Of a DNA stretch of 27,284 bases, positions 1 to 26,992 are shown one piece after another (position 1 is the first letter of the stretch; the number at the start of each line of letters is the position of its first letter). Both the position numbers and the translations under genes were made by a program. The stretch is taken from the IMG/VR virus record IMGVR_UViG_3300002144_000346, positions 1 to 27,284 of that record; one strand, written 5' to 3'. This stretch comes from a virus. The notes under the pieces were generated by a model, which worked only from the letters and a program-made list of their open reading frames with translations, ran no database searches and was not told the origin of the DNA.

Positions 1-1389
1 AAGTCTGATACTGCAGGTCCTGGTTCCAGTAACGTAGAAAGATTAATTAACTACAATAAAGTAGAAAAAGTACTAGAAGAAGGCGTTATATTAGGTTATG
101 CAGAAAAGTTTGGTACTCCTGAAAAAAGAACAATGCTTGGTACTTACAAAGAAAACTCAGTTGATTGGGTAGGAGAAGTAATATCCAAGAGTGATTTATT
201 CCTTTCTGGAAAAGAAGAAATGGAAAAAGTATTTAACTCTATTTCTGACCAAACTGGAAATGGACCTTTACTAGTAGATTTAGATTTAGGTAAGTCTATA
301 GAAGCAAACTTGTATTCTTTTATGATGTCAGGTACAGATTTATTTAAAGACATAAGAAACGAATGGGAGGATGTTACAGAAGGTACGGTTCAAGAAGTGT
401 TTGAAAGACAAACTGAAGGAACTGACAATGCATTCTTACAAGCACTAGGTATAGAGACAGCTAAAGATGGTACTCAATACATTAGCCTTGACAGTAAGAA
501 CAAAGCTACAGGATGGCAGAATGATATGTACAGAGCTTGGTCTAAGTTATATAACACCTACAACTATGTTGATGGCGTGCTTGACACTAAAACTGCTCAC
601 CCTGATAGAAAGCTAGCAATTAAATTGGCTAAGTATTCTTTTATGAACTCAGGTTTCCAAAACAACCTTGCTCAATTCTTTACTAGTTTGCCGCACCAAA
701 TAGTTAGTGACTACAATACTAGTAGTCAGGTAAGAGAAATGATGAATAATATTGGTGATATTCACCACTCTAGTTTTGTTGATCAATTTCAAAGACACTC
801 TTACGAGAACTCAGACGTTGTTAAAGGTATTAAACTAGACAACATGACTCACTACACAGTTAATAAGAATAGTGTAGGGTTTATATACAAGGTCCCTAAG
901 TATGGTAAAGGTTTAGGTACAGTTAGAAGAGTAGGTAAGAAAGAAGTTACTGTATATCCTAAGTTTGTTTCAGGCAGATGGCAAGGTAAGACAGAGCTTT
1001 TTGAGCAAGTAGGTACTGTTATTAGACCAGACTTAAATGCACCATTAAAAAATGATGGTACATATCCAAGAATTAAACTACCTGTTTATAAAAAAACATT
1101 TAAAATGGGTAAAAAAGTTGGAAAGCTTAGACAATTTGAGTATATTCGTGGAGAAAATCCAACGGAGTCTGTAATTGCAGAAAACAAATTATCTCCAACA
1201 GAATTAGAAAATGAAAGAACTTATATGACAGAATTGGCTCAAAGTGAATCAACCTTTGTGCCATCAGATGGTGTGCCAATAACGTCAGAAAGATTAGCAA
1301 AAATGGGAGAGTCAGTTATAGAGGATGCAAAAGTTATATTAGAAAACTTAGATGCAATAACTGAAGAATTAAATATAAAATGTAAATAA
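1..1389 (+). CDS. Large virion-associated protein, 3' part (5' end outside window)
   Basis: The reading frame is open from the first base, so the ATG at 133 is probably internal and the gene begins before the window; 462 residues are visible. No catalytic motif is recognised. The visible part is soluble, mixed charged and aromatic, with a Lys/Gly/Val-rich basic stretch about two thirds of the way along and an acidic helical C-terminus. It stops one base before the next gene, which has a similar style, so the two are probably co-transcribed and co-translated. By position next to a giant zincin-containing protein, it is most likely an internal virion or DNA-ejection protein, or an upstream piece of a split polyvalent protein. 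Function is inferred from context only. Confidence 0.7.
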   Translation, partial: KSDTAGPGSSNVERLINYNKVEKVLEEGVILGYAEKFGTPEKRTMLGTYKENSVDWVGEVISKSDLFLSGKEEMEKVFNSISDQTGNGPLLVDLDLGKSIEANLYSFMMSGTDLFKDIRNEWEDVTEGTVQEVFERQTEGTDNAFLQALGIETAKDGTQYISLDSKNKATGWQNDMYRAWSKLYNTYNYVDGVLDTKTAHPDRKLAIKLAKYSFMNSGFQNNLAQFFTSLPHQIVSDYNTSSQVREMMNNIGDIHHSSFVDQFQRHSYENSDVVKGIKLDNMTHYTVNKNSVGFIYKVPKYGKGLGTVRRVGKKEVTVYPKFVSGRWQGKTELFEQVGTVIRPDLNAPLKNDGTYPRIKLPVYKKTFKMGKKVGKLRQFEYIRGENPTESVIAENKLSPTELENERTYMTELAQSESTFVPSDGVPITSERLAKMGESVIEDAKVILENLDAITEELNIKCK

Positions 1390-1390
1390 G

Positions 1391-4300
1391 ATGAGCGATT
1401 GTAAAATATTTGTATATCAAGGTAAAGAGTACACAGAGACAGAACTTATAAGAACACTTTCTGCTGACACTGCTTTAGTAGAAAGGTTTAGACCACAAGA
1501 ACAAAGAGGTCAAGACTCTGATTATGCTCCAGAAGACATAGATACTTTTAAGAAAAAAGTAGAGGCTATGCAGAAAACTATGAATGTAGAAGTAATCTAT
1601 GACGATTCTATTCCTAGCTCTAGATTGCTAGGTAAAGGTGATCCTAGAACCATAGCTGCAGGTAGACCTGTTATTCTTATCAATCCTAATATGTTGTTTA
1701 AGACTACGGCAATTCACGAGTTTGGCCATGTATTCATCGATTCCTTTCCAGGAGGGCTGAGTAACCCAAGGTTAATCAAAGCATTAAAGGAACTTGAAGG
1801 AACTCAATTAGAAGCAGATGTTAAGGCAGCGTATCCAGATCTAACTCCTGACCAATTAAAAAAAGAAATTCTTGTTACTGCAATTGGTAGGGAAGGAAGT
1901 CAAATATTTGAGGACAGAGCAAAAGCAACATCTTTTGAAAAGTTTAAGACTTGGTTCTTTGACTTTTTAAGAAGAGCCTTTAATATGGAAAGGTCAGAAG
2001 TTACTGCATTATCTCAAGATTTATTGAGCAATAAAGTAAAAGAGATTGATGTATCAAAGACAGAAGATATTGCACAAGAAATGAGACCCTTGTTTATCAA
2101 AGACAAAACACAAGAGGAAATAGACAAAGAAGCAAATAAGACTGAAGCTGAGAAGAAGTTTGAAACTCTCGATAAGAGAATGGAAAAAACTTACAATGAC
2201 CTAGAAGGTACTGTGCAAAAAGTATTATCAAACCAAAGAAGAAGCCTAGACACAAAGGAGGCTAGAGCTCTAGAAAGAAAAAGAACAGAAGCTGGTCAAA
2301 CAACAAGACTGACTAGTATAGAAAATCTTAGTGAAAAGTTAGCTAAGTATGACGAAGCAAACAAAAAGTTTGGATTCGTAAGATATTTAAGCTGGGCTAA
2401 CAGTGAGCTCGGTCTTATGAGCAGTAAGCTTGACGATAGAATTGCAGCCAATGAGGCTAATGTAGATAACATGGCAGACGCTCACAACTGGTATGACTCT
2501 TTCTCTATTACAGAAGATATTCAAGATCTATTAGAGCAAATGAGAGCTGAAAATTTAATGGACGCTAAAGAGACTGCTATGGTAGACGGCATTATAGGTG
2601 AGATTGCTTTGAAAAAAAGACAAATTGCATCTAAAATGTTAGCTGCAGACAGAAAGTTGTATGCAGAACTTGTAGCTAATTACGATACTAGAACTGACGA
2701 GCAATACAAAGAAGGATTTAGACAACAATACAAAGGTCTTAAAGAAGCAGGTAAAACTGAAATGCAAGAGATGGAGTTTATTATGGATCAGATGGATAAA
2801 AATTCTGAAGAGATAAGACAGGCCAAAGTTGAAAAAGCAGAGCAAGAAGCTTTGCTTGCTAACAGCATATTAGGTAGAGTTTCTTTTGAGATATTATCTG
2901 AAAAAGACATGAACTCTATAGATATTGGTGTTGTATCTGATATAACAGATAGAGCAAATCATTTTGCAGAGCAGTTTGCTACATCAGAAGCTATCAAAGA
3001 TTATGATAGACACAAAGCCTGGAAAAGTTCAGGAATAGCAAATGCAAATAGTGCTGATAACAGAAAAAAATACGAAGGTATGTTTAGCTTTTCTAAAAGC
3101 GGACAAGGGTATTTTACTACCAAATATACTCCTCAGTTTATGGAAGATAGAAATGAGTTGGTAAGGGATGCAGCAAACAAGGAAGTATACGAAGAAAAAT
3201 TTAAGGACACTAAGTTCCAAATAAAGAAAAATAAAAATTCAACAACTTTTACGTATTCTTCTGAAGTTGTAGGTGCTGATGGAAAGAAAATTAATAGACC
3301 ACTTTCTATTAAGGGCTCTAAGCTTTTAGTAGTTGAAGGACTAGAAGATTTAAAGAAAGGAGAAAGGCCAACACACGTTACTTATACGGATAAGGCAGGA
3401 GATTCACATAGCATAACTTTCGAAGAGGCTATTGCTAGAAGTGAGTTATCTCACTGGACATCTATAAATACAACAACTAGACAGGTAACAACTGCATCTG
3501 GTATTGATATATCAGAACAAACTCCTATAGACAAGTATTTAGATAAAAACTTTGCTGACATGAAAAAGAATCAGCCTAAAAAGTTTGCTGAGCTTGAAGC
3601 ACTTAAAAGTGATATTCGTGCTGCAGATAAAGATCACAACGCTAAGGAATCTCTAATAAGATATCACGATGGTAACAGAGCTGTTGAGTTCATGAGGTTA
3701 CCTGGTATGATGAAAAGTCAAACAGCAAGAATACTTGAGGGTCAAAACCCAAATACAATTGGTAAGAGTTATATGAGCAGATTGTTTCAAACTCAAGCTG
3801 ATGATTACGATACTGGGTCTCAAGAAGACTTTGTTAATTACAGAGGTGGTGATGCGTTAGGTGTTCCTGTTAAGAACAGAGCTAGATTATCTCAGACTGA
3901 TCAGTCATTAGATTTGCACACTATGGTATTACAGGAAAAGATAGCAGCAAGATTCTATAAAGAAAGAAAGAAAGTTGAGTCTAGTGTAATTATCATTAGT
4001 GAAGTAATGAAAGAGAAAGAATACCCTGTTCTTGGTAAAGACGGAAGTGAAAGAAGAGATGCACAATCTAAATTAGCAAGAACTAAAAAAGGAGGAGAAT
4101 CTTCTCTTGAGTACAGAAAGGTAAGAAGTATTCTAGAAAATAAAGTATATGGTATCACCTCTAAAGAGACTAAGTCTTTTAAAGTAGGTAACTACCAAAT
4201 AGATTCACAGCAGTTAGTTAAAAATGGATTGAAGTATTTTGGATCAACAGCACTTGTATTTAACTTTGCCAACAGTATTGTAAACACAACCTCTGGTACT

Positions 4301-5536
4301 TTATCTCAATGGATGGATGCTATAGGTGGAGATGTATTTGGACTTAAAGATTTAGCAAAAGCAGGTAAGATTTATAGCCTTGACACAATTAATATTATGA
4401 AGGACTTTGGGTCTAACGTAGCTACATCTAAAACAAATATGCTACTTAACTTCTTTAACGTAATGGGTCCTGAGTACACTCAGTCTGACTTTGAAGAAGG
4501 TACTAGAGCTAGGTCACTTGCTGACATGAACAGCTTAAGACCATTAGCCAAGGCTGGTGAACACATGATGCAATCAAAAGCAATGTACGCTATACTAGAA
4601 AGTATAAAAGTAATGAATGAAAAAGGTCAGTTTATAGACAAAAATGGTAAGGTAGTAAAGAGCAAAAAAGAAGCTGCCAGTATGAACGACATGTTATCAT
4701 TTAAGAAAAAAGGTGGTAAAACAGAGATGGTTCTTAACTCTCATGTAAAAAATACTACATTTACACAAGGAGGTGGACAGTCACAGATATTGTTTGAGAC
4801 TAGAAACTTAATAAGAAGTAAGGTGGATGAGATGCATGGTCAGTATACATCAGATATACAAGCTCACATGCAAAGAAGTGCTCTTGGTAAAATGGCATTC
4901 TTCTTAAGAAAATGGACAATACCTTTGACTCTTCGTAGATACAGAGGTATTAAGAATGCATTTAAACCTGCAGACGCTGAGTTAGCTGAGGCTGATGAGT
5001 TCTATTCTAGAGCACAGAAGACAAACATAGAAGGGTATCATGTATCTGCTCTGAGATTTATGTCTCAGATAGTATCAGATGCTAGGAAAGATAAGATTAA
5101 CGTTGCTAAAAGCTGGAACAAACTAACTCCAAAGCAAAAAGCTGGTGTAAAGAAATCTATGGCAGATGTTGCATTAATGGTAATGGTATACACTGCAGCA
5201 GCATTCTTAAACGCAGAGGCAGATGATGATGATGATATGGTATTCTGGGCATATTTAATGAGAAGACAGCAGTCAGAATTAACTTTCTTTGTATCTCCTC
5301 CAGAGATGATAAAAATTGGTATGACTCCAACTGCAGCTTCAGGTAATTTCAAAAACATAACCAAATTTCTTAGTCAGTTAATTACAGACCCTATGGAAGA
5401 GTATCAAGTTGGTGATAGAAAAAATGAGTTAAAGCTTCCTAGAAGAGCAAAGAAACTATTTCCTGTTCTTGCTCAGCTTAAGGACTTACAGGATTTTAAA
5501 GATGCTAGAGATTATATTAACTCGGCAGGTTTCTAA
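1391..5536 (+). CDS. Giant virion-associated protein with N-terminal zincin (HExxH) motif
   Basis: A complete 1381-residue protein. A HEFGH zinc-metallopeptidase motif (His109, Glu110, His113) follows a beta-rich stretch; a possible third ligand is Glu159. Residues of about 230-530 are rich in Lys/Glu/Gln and look like long coiled helices. Near residue 1257 there is a hydrophobic Val/Met/Ala-rich segment followed by a run of five Asp, then a conserved-looking C-terminal region ending in a Gly-Phe. This architecture (small protease domain, long helical body, late hydrophobic segment) resembles large phage polyvalent or internal virion proteins that enter the cell with the DNA. The protease could act in capsid maturation or on host targets after ejection; neither can be decided here. 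It starts one base after the preceding stop. Confidence 0.8.
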   Translation: MSDCKIFVYQGKEYTETELIRTLSADTALVERFRPQEQRGQDSDYAPEDIDTFKKKVEAMQKTMNVEVIYDDSIPSSRLLGKGDPRTIAAGRPVILINPNMLFKTTAIHEFGHVFIDSFPGGLSNPRLIKALKELEGTQLEADVKAAYPDLTPDQLKKEILVTAIGREGSQIFEDRAKATSFEKFKTWFFDFLRRAFNMERSEVTALSQDLLSNKVKEIDVSKTEDIAQEMRPLFIKDKTQEEIDKEANKTEAEKKFETLDKRMEKTYNDLEGTVQKVLSNQRRSLDTKEARALERKRTEAGQTTRLTSIENLSEKLAKYDEANKKFGFVRYLSWANSELGLMSSKLDDRIAANEANVDNMADAHNWYDSFSITEDIQDLLEQMRAENLMDAKETAMVDGIIGEIALKKRQIASKMLAADRKLYAELVANYDTRTDEQYKEGFRQQYKGLKEAGKTEMQEMEFIMDQMDKNSEEIRQAKVEKAEQEALLANSILGRVSFEILSEKDMNSIDIGVVSDITDRANHFAEQFATSEAIKDYDRHKAWKSSGIANANSADNRKKYEGMFSFSKSGQGYFTTKYTPQFMEDRNELVRDAANKEVYEEKFKDTKFQIKKNKNSTTFTYSSEVVGADGKKINRPLSIKGSKLLVVEGLEDLKKGERPTHVTYTDKAGDSHSITFEEAIARSELSHWTSINTTTRQVTTASGIDISEQTPIDKYLDKNFADMKKNQPKKFAELEALKSDIRAADKDHNAKESLIRYHDGNRAVEFMRLPGMMKSQTARILEGQNPNTIGKSYMSRLFQTQADDYDTGSQEDFVNYRGGDALGVPVKNRARLSQTDQSLDLHTMVLQEKIAARFYKERKKVESSVIIISEVMKEKEYPVLGKDGSERRDAQSKLARTKKGGESSLEYRKVRSILENKVYGITSKETKSFKVGNYQIDSQQLVKNGLKYFGSTALVFNFANSIVNTTSGTLSQWMDAIGGDVFGLKDLAKAGKIYSLDTINIMKDFGSNVATSKTNMLLNFFNVMGPEYTQSDFEEGTRARSLADMNSLRPLAKAGEHMMQSKAMYAILESIKVMNEKGQFIDKNGKVVKSKKEAASMNDMLSFKKKGGKTEMVLNSHVKNTTFTQGGGQSQILFETRNLIRSKVDEMHGQYTSDIQAHMQRSALGKMAFFLRKWTIPLTLRRYRGIKNAFKPADAELAEADEFYSRAQKTNIEGYHVSALRFMSQIVSDARKDKINVAKSWNKLTPKQKAGVKKSMADVALMVMVYTAAAFLNAEADDDDDMVFWAYLMRRQQSELTFFVSPPEMIKIGMTPTAASGNFKNITKFLSQLITDPMEEYQVGDRKNELKLPRRAKKLFPVLAQLKDLQDFKDARDYINSAGF

Positions 5537-9417: not shown

Positions 9418-10519
9418 CTTCTGTGTTGTTTAAATTATTATTCCCTGTTATAGTCTCAGCATCCATCAAAACTAATCCTTCGCAATCAATTTGATCTTGA
9501 GTGTAGTCTATATTATCATTCTCTTTACTATAATAGTATAAGTCAAGCAACTCGTATACTCCTTCGTATTTGACACCGTGTCTATCTGTAAATCCATTAA
9601 GAGCAAGTTGATGCATATCTTCTGACACCAAAAACCTCATAGGTCTATTTGGATTCAACTTAGATATGTAAACAAACTCGAATTCTTTTACAGTATAACC
9701 GTGAAGTTCAAAGTCATTGTCAACTATAGACTTCAGTGCTTCTCTGTAAAGAGCACCTTGTATATAGTATCTGTGCATTGTGTAAAGTATAGGAAATTCT
9801 TTACAGGGAGATTCCCCTGTTTTAAGATCTACTGGTATAATTAACTTGTATTTGTGGTTAACTACTAAGCAGTCAAGCATTCCTTTAACTCTACGTCCAT
9901 TTACTTTTGTGTCAAATTTGTACTGATAAAATATCTGTACATCTTTTAATCCTTTAGCAAAGAATTTAGCTGTAAATCTATGTGTTATTAAGGTGTTTGC
10001 TGTTATTGCAGCATGATCCCACATCTCATTTTTTATTAAAGTTTTTCCAAAAGATTCTATTTTGTCTTTAAAATAAGAGCTACCAGCTTTTACAACAGTA
10101 GTTATTATTCTTTGGTCATTATAGGATGTATAGATTTTTAAACTTCTTGCTGCAGCAATTATTTGTGCAGAGTAAGATGATAAAGTTACTACTTTTTTTC
10201 GAGCTTTCCCAACAAAAGGACCATTATTGCTTGGTGCGGCAGAAGGTTTGTTAATAACTTGCAATATTGCATCGCATATTACCCTAACATTCTGTGTTGG
10301 TGCTTTTGCATTAGAACCCCTAGTAAACAACTCGTCTACTCTTTCTGGCTCAAAGCACATGCAGTCAACTAGACTACCAAACTTAAGATTGAAAGACTGT
10401 TTAACTCCTCCAACAACATCTAGACCTTGCTTACTTATGCTCGAAAGCATAGAATAAGAAGGGATATCTAGATCTCTGTAATCCCCCTCCTTCATAGAGA
10501 GGTTGTGATCTTCAATCAT
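9401..10519 (-). CDS. PD-(D/E)XK exonuclease, RecB-like
   Basis: 372 residues. Probably a metal-dependent DNA exonuclease working with the Sak4-like recombinase of this block. The signature is GMLD (Asp216), then PVDLKTG (Asp231, Lys233), then YYIQGALYREA, the QxxxY helix of the RecB/YqaJ/Exo VIII type (Gln254). The N-terminal region contains the FGSLVD stretch usual before these cores. The first 15 or so residues are acidic and the last 30 are Asn/Asp-rich and probably disordered. The leader is a repeated AAAT-type stretch with no Shine-Dalgarno. It overlaps the next gene by 17 bases. An alternative is a Cas4-like nuclease, but no Cys cluster is seen. Confidence 0.85.
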   Translation of the reverse strand: MIEDHNLSMKEGDYRDLDIPSYSMLSSISKQGLDVVGGVKQSFNLKFGSLVDCMCFEPERVDELFTRGSNAKAPTQNVRVICDAILQVINKPSAAPSNNGPFVGKARKKVVTLSSYSAQIIAAARSLKIYTSYNDQRIITTVVKAGSSYFKDKIESFGKTLIKNEMWDHAAITANTLITHRFTAKFFAKGLKDVQIFYQYKFDTKVNGRRVKGMLDCLVVNHKYKLIIPVDLKTGESPCKEFPILYTMHRYYIQGALYREALKSIVDNDFELHGYTVKEFEFVYISKLNPNRPMRFLVSEDMHQLALNGFTDRHGVKYEGVYELLDLYYYSKENDNIDYTQDQIDCEGLVLMDAETITGNNNLNNTEDEANI

Positions 10520-17772: not shown

Positions 17773-18816
17773 TTATAAGATTCTTTTCACAATATTTAGT
17801 GATTTTACCTTGTCAATTAAGTCTTGTACTGTTCCGTCATTTTCTATTACATAGTCAAACCCATCGTAATCATCTAAAGCTGTTTCTGAAGCGTGTTCAT
17901 TAATAACATCTTCATCAAAAGACCATTTATTTAAAGATGTAGAATATTCAAAACCTTCATTAATAGCATCTTCTGAGTAATCTTCATTGTAAGAATACAC
18001 ATACCCCATACCCATTAACTTTTGTTTTACTTCAAAGTCTTTATATATATACTTACTTTTTGAATCTCTATTAACCCTAATAACAATACCACCTCTATCT
18101 TTAATAGCTTTAGCCTCATTAGGAAATCTAACATCTGTTATTATCCATTTTGATTCCTCTATTTCTCTAGTAAAAACTTCGGCTTCTGAACCACCCCCAT
18201 ATTGAATCAAAGATTCTTCTGTATTTGGATAATCCTTTCTATATGTAATATTATAATCATTTCCTTCTATAGGATCTGGGTCATTCCATACATGCTTATA
18301 ATCAGCAAACAAAGCATTTACCCATATATTAGGGTGAATGATATGTCTACCTGCTTCAGTTCCTAAGAGTTGTAAAAGCAGCCTTGGTGTCATTGATATT
18401 TTGTTAATAGAATAGTCTAATAACCCAGACATTCTGGCCATCCTCTCAGCATCATCTAGTGTGGTGTAATAACTCTTGTCATAATAACGTTCATTTAACT
18501 TTTGAGCTTTAGCAAAATCTCTTGATACTAATTCATATTTACCCCACTCTTCACCAAGTTCTTTCTCCTTAAACTCTATGTCTTCTAGTTGACGTATATC
18601 GCATCCTATTAAAACTGCTGTTATCCATTTAATAGGATAAGCAAACTTTTTGTTTTCGTATACTTCATCAACAGGTGTTGACTCGTGCATATAATGCTCA
18701 AAGCTATTCCAGTAATCCTCTGTAACGATATAATTAATTACATCAAACAAAAGATCTTTTCCGTTTCCTATCTTTCCAGATATTCCAATCAGGTTAGGTC
18801 TACCACCAGCTATCAT
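17773..18816 (-). CDS. Deoxynucleoside monophosphate kinase-like protein
   Basis: 347 residues. Phosphorylates dNMPs to dNDPs, recycling host nucleotides into the dNTP pool together with the NrdA product. The P-loop GISGKIGNGKD (around residues 11-21) begins the core; TPRLLLQLLGTEAGR, WIITDVRFPNEA and the late SETALDD...VIENDGT match T4 gp1-type kinases. It is longer than the usual 240 or so residues: extra sequence lies in the middle (around residues 85-125 and 175-215) and before the C-terminal helix, probably loops. The start overlaps the upstream gene by 17 bases. Moderately strong by motif order, not verified by alignment. Confidence 0.85.
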   Translation of the reverse strand: MIAGGRPNLIGISGKIGNGKDLLFDVINYIVTEDYWNSFEHYMHESTPVDEVYENKKFAYPIKWITAVLIGCDIRQLEDIEFKEKELGEEWGKYELVSRDFAKAQKLNERYYDKSYYTTLDDAERMARMSGLLDYSINKISMTPRLLLQLLGTEAGRHIIHPNIWVNALFADYKHVWNDPDPIEGNDYNITYRKDYPNTEESLIQYGGGSEAEVFTREIEESKWIITDVRFPNEAKAIKDRGGIVIRVNRDSKSKYIYKDFEVKQKLMGMGYVYSYNEDYSEDAINEGFEYSTSLNKWSFDEDVINEHASETALDDYDGFDYVIENDGTVQDLIDKVKSLNIVKRIL

Positions 18817-23521: not shown

Positions 23522-23755
23522 TTAAACTTTATATACTGACTCTTCTGGAAGTTTATACCATCTGGCAACATCTTCCGATTTTTTCTTACTCAATGTAGTG
23601 TATTGGCCGTCTCTGTAGAGAAAATATTCTCCGTGTACTTTCCTATAAACTTTTGTTACATTAAATAACCAATAGTTTATGATAACTGTCAATTCTACTA
23701 TTATTTCTGATCTTTCTAACTCAATATAGTTTTTATCTATTACTCTTACTTTCAT
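23522..23755 (-). CDS. Unknown small basic protein
   Basis: 77 residues, beta-rich with many Tyr, Lys and Val. No recognised motif. It begins 23 bases inside the DnaA-like gene in another frame, and ends just before a hairpin. It may be a small nucleic-acid-binding protein. Confidence 0.55.
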   Translation of the reverse strand: MKVRVIDKNYIELERSEIIVELTVIINYWLFNVTKVYRKVHGEYFLYRDGQYTTLSKKKSEDVARWYKLPEESVYKV

Positions 23756-24185
23756 ATCCCATTTCTGTAATCTCCTTTTCTAATTTTAATTCCTGAAGAA
23801 AAGGTTTCAGTTTGTTCTCATTGAACCTACGCAGTTCCTTTACTGATAGGGAAGACAACTCACTGACCATTGCTGAAATGTAATCACCATATATTAGCTG
23901 TGTTTTACTATTGATTGTATCAATTGGTAACTCCATGCTTTCTATAGCTCTATTGTATATCATTAAATCTAGTCCTTTAACATCACTAAATGTGTTGTTG
24001 TGATGTATTACTAAATCATGTGTCGTTCCGTATGCCTCCGCTATTGCTGAGGGGCCAAAACCCAACTCATTAGCTAGCTTGAAAAGTACTTTCCTTCCGT
24101 ACACGTACTTTTGCTTCCTAGTTTTTGTCATTATGTCAAAACCATAATATTGGTCTAACATAGTTTTTAAAATTGTTAACTGCAT
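23733..24185 (-). CDS. DnaA domain IV-like DNA-binding protein
   Basis: 150 residues. Residues of about 20-70 read KTRKQKYVYGRK...ANELGF...IAEAYGTTHDLVIHH, which fits the helix-turn-helix order of DnaA domain IV, including a counterpart of the GxRDHTTVxHA signature. The rest is helical and has a charged C-terminus. It may bind a phage replication origin or host dnaA boxes to redirect initiation. No AAA+ domain is present, so it is not a DnaA ATPase. Spacing to the upstream small gene is five bases. Confidence 0.7.
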   Translation of the reverse strand: MQLTILKTMLDQYYGFDIMTKTRKQKYVYGRKVLFKLANELGFGPSAIAEAYGTTHDLVIHHNNTFSDVKGLDLMIYNRAIESMELPIDTINSKTQLIYGDYISAMVSELSSLSVKELRRFNENKLKPFLQELKLEKEITEMGYESKSNR

Positions 24186-24336: not shown

Positions 24337-24414
24337 TTAGTTTCTTAGTGCGTAAGCTGCATACTTCCCCATCTTCTTAAGGGCTTCTTGTCTTGTAATT
24401 TTTTCTTCTTTCAT
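24337..24414 (-). CDS. Tiny basic protein, 25 residues
   Basis: Starts with the ATG of an ATGA overlap with the stop of the 75-residue gene, good evidence of a coupled gene. Contains TRQEALKKMGKYAAYA, resembling short basic helices I recall from Bacteroidota proteins. Function unknown. Confidence 0.45.
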   Translation of the reverse strand: MKEEKITRQEALKKMGKYAAYALRN

Positions 24415-24701: not shown

Positions 24702-25076
24702 CTAGTCTGTAAACAAATGCTTAACCTCTGATTGTGGGTGTCCATCATACATCTCCAGGTACGTAAGCAAAGGAACTGTTAAGTGCTTTTGCATTAGTAC
24801 TAGATCTGAATTACAGGCTATGTCTACCATAGTATACACAGGATCCTGTTGATCAGGAACTTTATTGTATGTTTTCTCCCACTCTACAACAGAATTAAAG
24901 ACATCTTCAACGTTCTCGTTGATGAATACTCTCTTACCGTTGTATCTACCCATATAACAATAAGTGTTTATGCAACCACCAAAGCATCCGTAGATTACAT
25001 TTGGTGCTATGCAGTTCGCACTATTGTTATTTGTTTTTGTAACAAATGTTTTGGTCTTTTGATATTTAATTGCCAC
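24702..25076 (-). CDS. Short radical-SAM-like protein, probably truncated
   Basis: 124 residues from the GTG at 25076, which shares a base with the stop of the upstream gene (TAGTG); a longer frame from GTG 25100 is possible. The N-terminus holds a cysteine cluster, GCFGGCINTYCYMGRY, a CX3CX4C spacing near the radical SAM CX3CX2C, followed by VDIACNSDL, which I recall from spore-photoproduct-lyase-like proteins. The remainder of a radical SAM barrel is missing and the protein ends after a Pro/Gln-rich stretch, so it may be a truncated enzyme, a split protein, or a small iron-sulphur protein. Function is not assignable. Confidence 0.55.
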   Translation of the reverse strand: MAIKYQKTKTFVTKTNNNSANCIAPNVIYGCFGGCINTYCYMGRYNGKRVFINENVEDVFNSVVEWEKTYNKVPDQQDPVYTMVDIACNSDLVLMQKHLTVPLLTYLEMYDGHPQSEVKHLFTD

Positions 25077-25261
25077 TAGAATAGCCAATCTGTTAGACAC
25101 TCATAAACAAAGTCATAATTGTCGTTCATAATATCAAGTTCTTCTTCTGTAGCATCTCTACCTTTGTAGTCTGCTGATTCAATGTATGCATCAGCAAAAT
25201 CTGGGTAATCAGCCGTATCGACTCCTCCCATTACTACATTGTCTATTTTATCAAATTCCAT
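25076..25261 (-). CDS. Conserved small acidic phage protein, 61 residues
   Basis: Contains DYPDFADAYIESADYKGR and TEEELDIMN, a pattern I recall from a widespread small protein family in phages and bacteria, with no known function. It is highly acidic. It is five bases after the upstream gene, and its stop overlaps the start of the radical-SAM-like gene. Confidence 0.75.
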   Translation of the reverse strand: MEFDKIDNVVMGGVDTADYPDFADAYIESADYKGRDATEEELDIMNDNYDFVYECLTDWLF

Positions 25262-25266
25262 ATTTT

Positions 25267-25551
25267 TTATTTTGTTATCTCATCTTCTGAAATTGTTAAT
25301 CTAAATAATTCATCTAATACTTCACCGTCAGAATATTCATTTTTGTCAGCAGATTCTCCTATGTATCTACTAACAAATTCACAAGCAAATCTTACTCCTT
25401 CACCCATCAATTTCTGTTTTGATGAACCAAATTTTTGTAGATTAGCAGCTATCTGCAGTAAAGGCATATCTTTTTCTAACTTAAAACAAAGCATCTGCTC
25501 TCTAGGAGTCAGCATATTGTCGTCTTTTACTGTTTTTCTTTGAAAATCCAT
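25267..25551 (-). CDS. Unknown small protein, 94 residues
   Basis: Not recognised. The ATG at 25551 is preferred over a longer frame that starts with TTG at 25641, because the TTG lies in a candidate promoter (TATATTTG) and would be outside the transcript. The protein has a charged N-terminus, a helical middle with Gln/Ala/Leu, and an acidic C-terminal helix. It is followed five bases later by the small acidic gene. Confidence 0.6.
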   Translation of the reverse strand: MDFQRKTVKDDNMLTPREQMLCFKLEKDMPLLQIAANLQKFGSSKQKLMGEGVRFACEFVSRYIGESADKNEYSDGEVLDELFRLTISEDEITK

Positions 25552-25628: not shown

Positions 25629-25724
25629 TTAATGGCAACAAATATAATAGACATATACAAGATAGAAAATATAAACGATCTTCATGCCTATTATAAAATT
25701 TTTTTCTTCTTTACCTAATTTCAT
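25629..25724 (-). CDS. Tiny membrane peptide, 31 residues
   Basis: Begins with the ATG of an ATGA overlap with the upstream 63-residue gene. After a charged start (KLGKEEK) it is almost entirely hydrophobic (Ile, Val, Tyr, Phe), a single probable membrane segment ending in two Cys and a His. The 3' half overlaps the promoter-like motif at 25639-25665, so either the peptide or the motif could be the selected feature. Confidence 0.4.
   Translation of the reverse strand: MKLGKEEKNFIIGMKIVYIFYLVYVYYICCH
25639..25665 (-). promoter_or_regulatory. Candidate promoter, second copy of the phage motif
   Basis: On the minus strand CTATCT, 3 bases, ATATGTC, 1 base, ATTATATTTG, closely matching 17744-17772. 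TATATTTG fits the Bacteroidota -7 element. The next ATG downstream is at 25551, giving a leader of about 80 bases. The motif also lies inside a 31-codon frame, which lowers certainty. Confidence 0.4.
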
Positions 25725-25912
25725 ATCGTTTTTTCGTTTACGAAATGCTTCTTTATTATTGCCCGTGATACAATAAAAGATAACAAACCTACTAATGGTG
25801 GGAATGCATCTGCATCTGCTGTAATTAATACATAGACAATTGTTCCTACTGTTATTACAAGCAAGAGCATTGCACCGGTTAGATACAAAGCTAATTTATT
25901 CTCTAATTTCAT
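25721..25912 (-). CDS. Small membrane protein, 63 residues
   Basis: Two hydrophobic segments: a long Leu/Val/Ile stretch around residues 10-32 and a second around 38-53, ending in a basic tail. Could be a holin-like or superinfection-exclusion protein, but no family is recognised. It starts one base after the upstream 38-residue gene and overlaps the 31-residue gene through ATGA. Confidence 0.6.
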   Translation of the reverse strand: MKLENKLALYLTGAMLLLVITVGTIVYVLITADADAFPPLVGLLSFIVSRAIIKKHFVNEKTI

Positions 25913-25913
25913 A

Positions 25914-26030
25914 TTATTTAAGTTTTATTTTTATTATTCTACTCATTATCGCACTTCGTCTGTAACCTTTTGGCAGTTTATCTACTAATTGTTGTAAGGC
26001 TTGTATGATCATTTTATTAGTTCTTTTCAT
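25914..26030 (-). CDS. Tiny basic protein, 38 residues
   Basis: Starts MKRTNKMIIQALQQLVDKL and ends with a Lys/Ile-rich helix. Strongly basic, amphipathic. One base separates it from each neighbour, which supports a real gene in a packed operon. It may bind membrane or nucleic acid; unproved. Confidence 0.5.
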   Translation of the reverse strand: MKRTNKMIIQALQQLVDKLPKGYRRSAIMSRIIKIKLK

Positions 26031-26031
26031 G

Positions 26032-26211
26032 CTATTTAATTTTAGATTTTAGTAATGCTTTTTGTAGAACAATAGTTCTAATAGTCAATAATATTGTTAA
26101 TAATGGATGAATTATTACAAATATCCATATATTAGCTTCTTCGTATGTTATACCTACTACTTGTGCTATCCATTTAAGGATGTCTACACATATTTGAAAT
26201 AATTCTGCCAT
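26032..26211 (-). CDS. Small membrane protein, 59 residues
   Basis: A short N-terminal helix, then IWIFVIIHPLLTILLTI, a clear membrane segment, and a Lys-rich cytoplasmic tail. Its stop is one base before the next start, typical of this cluster. It is below common gene-length cut-offs. Possible holin, pinholin-like or exclusion protein. Confidence 0.55.
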   Translation of the reverse strand: MAELFQICVDILKWIAQVVGITYEEANIWIFVIIHPLLTILLTIRTIVLQKALLKSKIK

Positions 26212-26222
26212 TGTTTTTAGTT

Positions 26223-26303
26223 TTAGTCGTTAATTAATCCGTGTATTATTGTGGCTACACAACATACTGATATTAATATAAATATTATATCTATTACTCC
26301 CAT
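26223..26303 (-). CDS. Tiny membrane peptide, 26 residues
   Basis: MGVIDIIFILISVCCVATII plus a short polar end; almost entirely a single membrane segment. It lies three bases from the stop of the upstream gene and 11 bases before the next start. Real-gene status rests on spacing and hydrophobicity alone. Confidence 0.4.
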   Translation of the reverse strand: MGVIDIIFILISVCCVATIIHGLIND

Positions 26304-26306
26304 GAT

Positions 26307-26558
26307 TTATTTGATTTTGTCATCGTAATCTTCACGCAAATGTTTCATGCATAAAGAATAACCATATTGTTTTGCCATTTGCATTAGCAAGAAATCGTTT
26401 GATCCGTTGTTTGCTTTTGTAAATGCTTCTAATTGCTCTTCTGTTGGTGTTGCAACTATACCTTTACTAAGATTTGCAGTTCTTTCCGCTATAAAATCTT
26501 CCATAGTATATCTGTTGTCGTCCCACCTGTCTTTTTTCCCTTGATCGGTTATATTCAT
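26307..26558 (-). CDS. Unknown small soluble protein, 83 residues
   Basis: Charged, helical and soluble, with an N-terminal Lys/Arg/Asp region, a central Thr/Glu/Ala part and a C-terminal Leu/Met/Lys helix. No motif recognised. It is the first gene after the strong terminator at 26593-26637 and leads into the membrane-peptide cluster, so a promoter should lie in the 34-base gap, though none is clear there. Confidence 0.65.
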   Translation of the reverse strand: MNITDQGKKDRWDDNRYTMEDFIAERTANLSKGIVATPTEEQLEAFTKANNGSNDFLLMQMAKQYGYSLCMKHLREDYDDKIK

Positions 26559-26592: not shown

Positions 26593-26637
26593 AAAAAAAA
26601 GCAACACAACAAACATTATTGTTTATCGTGTTGCTTT
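26593..26637 (-). terminator. Strong rho-independent terminator
   Basis: A 10-bp stem, AAAGCAACAC with GTGTTGCTTT, topped by an inner AAACA/TGTTT pair, and on the minus strand followed by TTTTTTTT. It ends the transcript coming from the right of the window and isolates the 26558 gene. Confidence 0.9.
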
Positions 26638-26661: not shown

Positions 26662-26829
26662 TTACTGTACCGTCCAATAATTATTACCATTAACAGTGGT
26701 TTCGGTCATATAAAAATAACCATCAGAATATAATTCTAATTTTCTTTCTGCTGCTGACTCTGATGGAAAAACAGTTAATAATCTTGAAGTTATATTTATT
26801 TCAAGATCATCAAGACCACTAGTTATTAC
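26662..26829 (-). pseudogene. Coding-like stretch without a start codon
   Basis: A 55-codon open frame ending TAA at 26662. Its second half reads like real protein (TVFPSESAAERKLELYS, then DGYFYMTE, then NGNNYWTVQ), but between the upstream TAA at 26830-26832 and this region there is no ATG, GTG or TTG; the first ATG is 16 codons before the stop. It is followed by the strong terminator. It may be the remains of a gene cut at its 5' end, a 3' exon, or a frame opened by recoding or a rare start. Confidence 0.45.
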
Positions 26830-26925
26830 TTATTTCCCCTAGAACCAATGGGTTCGTATGTGGGGAAATAACTTAAGGTTTTGACAGCCCTCACACTCAT
26901 CGGCTGTCGGTGACATTTACAGTGA
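26830..26925. ncRNA. Structured RNA-like segment with possible pseudoknot
   Basis: A 10-bp stem (TTATTTCCCC at 26830-26839 with GGGGAAATAA at 26862-26871) holds an inner GAACC/GGTTC stem. Next to it a 7-bp stem (GACAGCC 26883-26889 with GGCTGTC 26902-26908) has a loop TCAC that can pair with GTGA at 26910-26913, an H-type pseudoknot. There is no U-tract, and the pairing works on either strand. The remainder of the 26641-26992 interval outside this and the coding-like stretch shows no gene. Confidence 0.4.
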
Positions 26926-26992
26926 AGCACAAAGGCCTGCCAACTTGGTATTATTATAATCTACTGATACTTTTAGTTAACGTTATACGGTG

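Follow-up and report, generated by a model that had tools for sequence, protein, structure and literature searches.

A packed cassette of five very small, mostly membrane-associated proteins in a marine Bacteroidota-type phage, and the family of its 59-residue member

Five consecutive minus-strand frames of 26, 59, 38, 63 and 31 codons form a packed cassette in the genome fragment of a phage, and the second of them encodes a member of a small membrane protein family, which is shared by phages and bacteria and matched none of the models tested from Pfam, NCBIfam and PHROGs. The cassette may perhaps be an early module for interference at the membrane, for which superinfection exclusion would appear to be the most likely role; this is a tentative reading, which is preferred here to three others. 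In kind, both small early genes in packed arrays and small membrane proteins of phages are already known.

Results and Discussion

The window, i.e., the whole stretch of DNA which was analysed (27,284 nucleotides), is an IMG/VR virus record (IMGVR_UViG_3300002144_000346). Two long plus-strand genes are located at one end (1–5536); a minus-strand block extends from 26558 to 5665 and includes genes for a DEAD-type helicase, DnaB, an AAA ATPase, a primase-like protein, a MoxR-type ATPase, a PD-(D/E)XK protein and a ribonucleotide reductase (RNR). The DnaB protein matched crAss-like phages at about 32% identity, and the RNR was closest to that of Cellulophaga phage phiST (60%). Neither a terminase nor a capsid gene was identified in the window, which is from a marine phage of Bacteroidota-type bacteria.

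The features of the cassette and its surroundings are given in Table 1. One terminator-like hairpin was found, with 0.7 expected in shuffled sequences, and its location suggests that the cassette unit begins after it. The frames of the cassette are probably co-translated and, since they are near the head of a unit carrying replication genes, probably made early, as judged from their position.

Table 1. Positions of the cassette frames and neighbouring features in the window; identities refer to the related contig L001.
Feature	Position	Strand	Remarks
Intrinsic-terminator-like hairpin	26598..26637	-	18 pairs, then T run; ends ~40 bases upstream of 83-aa gene
83-aa soluble protein	26307..26558	-	First gene of unit; 90% identical
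Cassette frame 1, 26-aa peptide	26223..26303	-	Single membrane segment; equal length and place, 81% identical
Cassette frame 2, 59-aa protein	26032..26211	-	Conserved member; amphipathic helix 2–19, long helix 23–58 with membrane segment, basic C-terminus
Cassette frame 3, 38-aa peptide	25914..26030	-	Basic, soluble; 68% identical, dN/dS 0.27
Cassette frame 4, 63-aa protein	25721..25912	-	One clear membrane segment and second predicted helix; 76% identical
Cassette frame 5, 31-aa peptide	25629..25724	-	Single membrane segment; 43% identical; ATGA start overlap
94-aa soluble protein	25267..25551	-	Downstream of cassette, fast-evolving; 32% identical
61-aa acidic protein	25076..25261	-	Common phage family; relatives in 310 matched IMG/VR stretches

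According to the list of open reading frames of the window, the five frames are read from 26303 to 25629. Spacers of 11, 1 and 1 bases separate the first four, and the stop of frame 4 shares four bases (ATGA) with the start of frame 5. Hydrophobic segments, defined by a Kyte-Doolittle mean of ≥ 1.6 over 19 residues, were present in the 26-, 59-, 63- and 31-residue proteins; the same scan showed none in the basic 38-residue protein. The original prediction of a coupled set of tiny proteins, four of five with a membrane segment and several under the usual gene-calling cut-offs, was thus borne out, including spacing and overlap.

A chain of five such frames was not reached by chance: when the 675-bp stretch was shuffled 2000 times with its dinucleotides preserved, chains reached three frames at most, and this length occurred once; three was also the maximum when the whole window was shuffled 100 times. 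The sequence upstream of all five starts is A-rich, as in other genes of the window, with A fractions of 0.50–0.69 (mean of reference genes, 0.56; mean of all minus-strand ATGs, 0.37). Antisense frames opposite the cassette were considered and rejected; they mirror the conservation of the sense frames, and one of them is interrupted by stops in L001.

Conservation in a related contig

The 19.9-kb IMG/VR contig L001 contains the cassette in the same order, with intact frames. It encodes, in sequence, the 83-residue protein, a 26-residue peptide, the homologue of the 59-residue protein (extended to 138 residues), the counterpart of the 38-residue peptide (inside a 50-residue frame), proteins of 64 and 30 residues, whose genes retain the ATGA overlap, and the counterparts of the 94-residue (94/101) and 61-residue proteins. 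Viral scans with pairs of the 63- and 83-residue proteins returned L001 again and no other occurrence of the whole cassette, and the cassette DNA and seven family or cassette proteins had no match in 50,697 phage records.

Codon comparison with L001 yielded a dN/dS of 0.26 for the 59-codon frame, 0.27 for the 38-codon frame and 0.18 for the 63-codon frame, which supports purifying selection on these three. The value for the 31-codon frame was 0.77, and the codon comparison backs it weakly; its overlap and its hydrophobic segment are kept. The 26-codon frame differs six times at a first or second codon position and never at a third one; since there are no synonymous differences, the comparison is uninformative here, and what supports this frame is its position and its length. 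The suggested check of synonymous sites hence spoke for the middle three frames (0.18–0.27), weakly for the fifth, and was silent on the first. Lack of conservation or broken frames, which would have argued against the prediction, was not found for the middle three, whose dN/dS is low and which are intact in L001. Altogether, the 59-, 38- and 63-codon frames are almost certainly real genes, the 31-codon frame is likely to be one, and the 26-codon frame is a probable one.

Several observations were made in the vicinity of the cassette. The family of the neighbouring 61-residue protein is characterised by the motif DYPDFxDAYIxSAD; at all of its 79 other loci that were retained, the family of the 59-residue protein was absent. 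The gene at 24702–25100 is shortened after about 130 codons, the full length being 278 residues in L001 and 280 in G003, a 71.8-kb relative. A 25-residue frame, MKEEKITRQEALKKMGKYAAYALRN (window 24337–24414, compared with L173 5414–6522), has the appearance of a scar: it begins like the L001 gene MNKEKITRAEALKKMGKYA... and ends like a second L001 gene (...GNGAAYALRN), and small lipoprotein-like genes amounting to about 1 kb are missing from the window at this site. A non-coding stretch, CCGACAGCCGATGAGTGTGAGGGCTGTCAAAAC.TTAAGTTATTTCCCCACATACGAACCCATTGGTTCTAGGGG (window 26826–26930, minus strand; L173 ~650–750), hardly differs between the window and L001, although the DNA flanking it does. A search of Rfam with the region upstream of the cassette, including this stretch, gave nothing credible.

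The 59-residue protein family

Alignment-guided searches detected the family in at least 93 confirmed viral-contig stretches (80 of the 93 were retrieved), and members are encoded also in genomes of Flavobacteriales and other Bacteroidota. Six residues (F5, C8, Y23, N27, V32 and P36) are invariant in 33 sequences. Comparisons with Pfam (12 members), NCBIfam and PHROGs (40 members) gave scattered weak matches only; similarly, the tiny proteins of the cassette showed sub-threshold matches only against PHROGs, Pfam, NCBIfam and PADLOC. No exclusion or defence protein already known matched the family in the libraries tested, and nothing was found in the literature on the family or on its sharing with host islands. 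One candidate identity, DUF6341 (PF19868), was rejected, since the only match was a faint one in a single member (E 0.57), below the curated cut-off. DUF6341 is likewise a family of small proteins with a single membrane segment and is common in Flavobacteriales; however, genome G008 holds its DUF6341 match as a separate gene elsewhere, apart from the 59-residue family.

The AlphaFold model of the 59-residue protein, calculated with 33 sequences, had a pLDDT of 92.6; in it, an amphipathic helix (moment 0.50) is followed by a hydrophobic one. Across the family the mean net charge changes from about -2 ahead of the membrane segment to about +4 behind it. By the positive-inside rule this asymmetry suggests an N-out, C-in orientation, in which the N-terminal helix would probably lie at the outer side of the membrane and the basic C-terminus at the cytoplasmic side. 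Foldseek searches of BFVD and PDB gave no significant structural match, as expected for two helices. The AlphaFold model of the 63-residue protein contained helices 3–34 and 38–62, at a lower confidence (pLDDT 72.5).

In phages the family gene is not bound to one module, and its neighbours vary. Integrase, DNA polymerase, the RNR small subunit, MazG and the terminase small subunit were the recurrent neighbours identified among 77 neighbour proteins from representative loci (best 25 of 112 families). Some phages carry the gene next to terminase or structural genes, not early genes.

The cellular copies occur as solo genes, as tandem duplications of about 120–132 residues, or as pairs, in which a family member of 60–72 residues is accompanied by a membrane protein of 111–143 residues; this partner itself scores weakly against the family. 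Solo and duplicated copies are mostly located beside housekeeping genes, and the phage copies are closer to the solo form than to the pair form. Several pairs were found near restriction genes or integrases. The distance to an N6_Mtase restriction gene was 0.7 kb in G367, 2.5 kb in G345 and 2.4 kb in G350:C150, and an integrase was present within 5 kb in G350:C150, G350:C78 and G375:C6; the probabilities under uniform placement, about 3 × 10^-6 and 4 × 10^-4, respectively, are indicative only, since several of the tested loci had been inspected beforehand. The pairs of G334, G431 and G582 are outside such islands. By visual inspection, MotA/MotB-like genes resembling components of Zorya were noticed upstream of the pair in G367; L265 (1278–10505) contains in a row a MotA/MotB-like (Zorya-like) pair, the family pair, and HsdM, DUF262 and HsdS-like genes, and could by this appearance be a defence island.

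Possible functions

Four functions were weighed, and superinfection exclusion ranked first, followed by an auxiliary role on a host complex, counter-defence by mimicry and, last, lysis. An early module of membrane interference is a possible, though far from secure, interpretation of the cassette. The 59-residue protein, together with the 26-, 63- and 31-residue membrane peptides and the basic 38-residue peptide, would enter the inner membrane of the host early in infection and would there disturb a membrane process of the host or of a rival phage; the most likely target would be DNA entry of a competing phage. The three membrane peptides could be lineage-specific partners of the 59-residue protein. 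The position on the early strand, the specific membrane motif, the wide spread across unrelated phages and the mobile, restriction-linked form in some hosts together point to a membrane factor in conflicts between phage and host or between phages. Both superinfection exclusion and anti-defence, as named in the original prediction, receive weak support from the early-strand position and from the host homologues near restriction and integrase genes. Superinfection-exclusion membrane proteins of phages, for example Imm of T4, are small inner-membrane proteins which are made early. The 59-residue protein is also a small membrane protein, and its early expression would follow from the position of its gene; it differs from these proteins in that it has no sequence match to any annotated family and that exclusion is here a proposal. 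Against exclusion stand the many solo and duplicated host copies beside ordinary housekeeping genes, the phages in which the gene is next to terminase or structural genes, the failure of searches to match the family to a known exclusion or defence protein, and the fact that the whole cassette is known in one relative only.

The same housekeeping surroundings of solo and duplicated chromosomal copies would suit a different role, namely that of a small auxiliary or regulatory subunit on a conserved membrane enzyme or envelope complex of the host, without any part in exclusion, defence or lysis. The invariant residues C8, Y23 and N27 also suggest a specific partner; however, no conserved neighbour indicating such a partner was found among the loci examined. 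This role is considered rather unlikely and takes second place.

Doubtful is the proposal that a solo phage copy of the two-gene membrane module of the hosts acts as a decoy, i.e., that it poisons or mimics this module and thereby counters a defence. It would agree with the host pairs of G345, G367 and G375 and those at two loci of G350, all of which are close to a restriction gene or an integrase. The island module, however, has no family match among the PADLOC models, the phage copies resemble the other host form, as described above, and the pair loci of G334, G431 and G582 are not in islands.

A lysis module was among the roles suggested originally and is the least probable of the four; in it, the 59- and 63-residue proteins would be holin and antiholin (or a pinholin) and the tiny peptides would tune the timing of lysis. 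Small phage holins such as T7 gp17.5 and pinholin S21 have about 60–70 residues, one or two membrane helices and a basic C-terminus. The 59-residue protein is similarly short, with a membrane helix and a basic C-terminus, and the cassette shows the holin feature of small proteins with one to three membrane helices. In L064 (G790) the family gene lies directly after a PHROG holin (phrog_3427), adjacent and on the same strand; in L078 it converges with an adjoining endolysin-like gene. In two related chromosomes (L048 4510–6469, L049 4118–6133) a set of four genes, for the duplicated family protein, a membrane coiled-coil protein, a 189-residue protein and a GH19 hydrolase, resembles a lysis cassette. 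The GH19 neighbourhood was rejected as a general pattern, since it did not extend to the other host loci.

However, the cassette is on the replication strand, just downstream of the terminator-like hairpin, no lysis gene was recognised next to it, and no holin model matches the 59-residue protein. Where holins or endolysins could be recognised in relatives, they were, with few exceptions, far from the family gene or on the opposite strand: G003 has the family gene at 9891–10106 (plus strand) and two PHROG holins at 17996–18463 and 23543–23956 (minus strand), about 8 and 13 kb away; an Amidase_2 endolysin was located about 3 kb off on the opposite strand in nine of nine contigs, which are related to each other and count as few lineages; and the phrog_3427 holin is about 10–34 kb from the family gene in G789, G794 and G798, G790 being the only case of adjacency. 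A family gene with an endolysin or a spanin in a lysis or late cluster was not found, with the exceptions of L064 and L078. This separation from lysis genes, seen in almost every relative that was checked, together with the location near the head of the replication strand behind the terminator-like hairpin, disfavours lysis; a holin role would be conceivable in single lineages, not as a common theme.

Conclusions

As a broader and speculative picture, the 59-residue protein could be the phage arm of a membrane module which phages of Bacteroidota have in common with mobile or defence islands in the host genomes; early solo copies would block the module or exclude rivals, and the 26-, 63- and 31-residue peptides would be its fast-changing partners. 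A small membrane protein family is now defined by its six-residue motif and a confident two-helix model, and frames of only 31–38 codons can keep their position in a phage array such as this cassette. Because some host copies are near restriction genes and integrases, the family provides a concrete and cheap candidate for testing exclusion or counter-defence of phages at the level of the membrane, which would be suited to laboratory systems of Flavobacterium or Cellulophaga.
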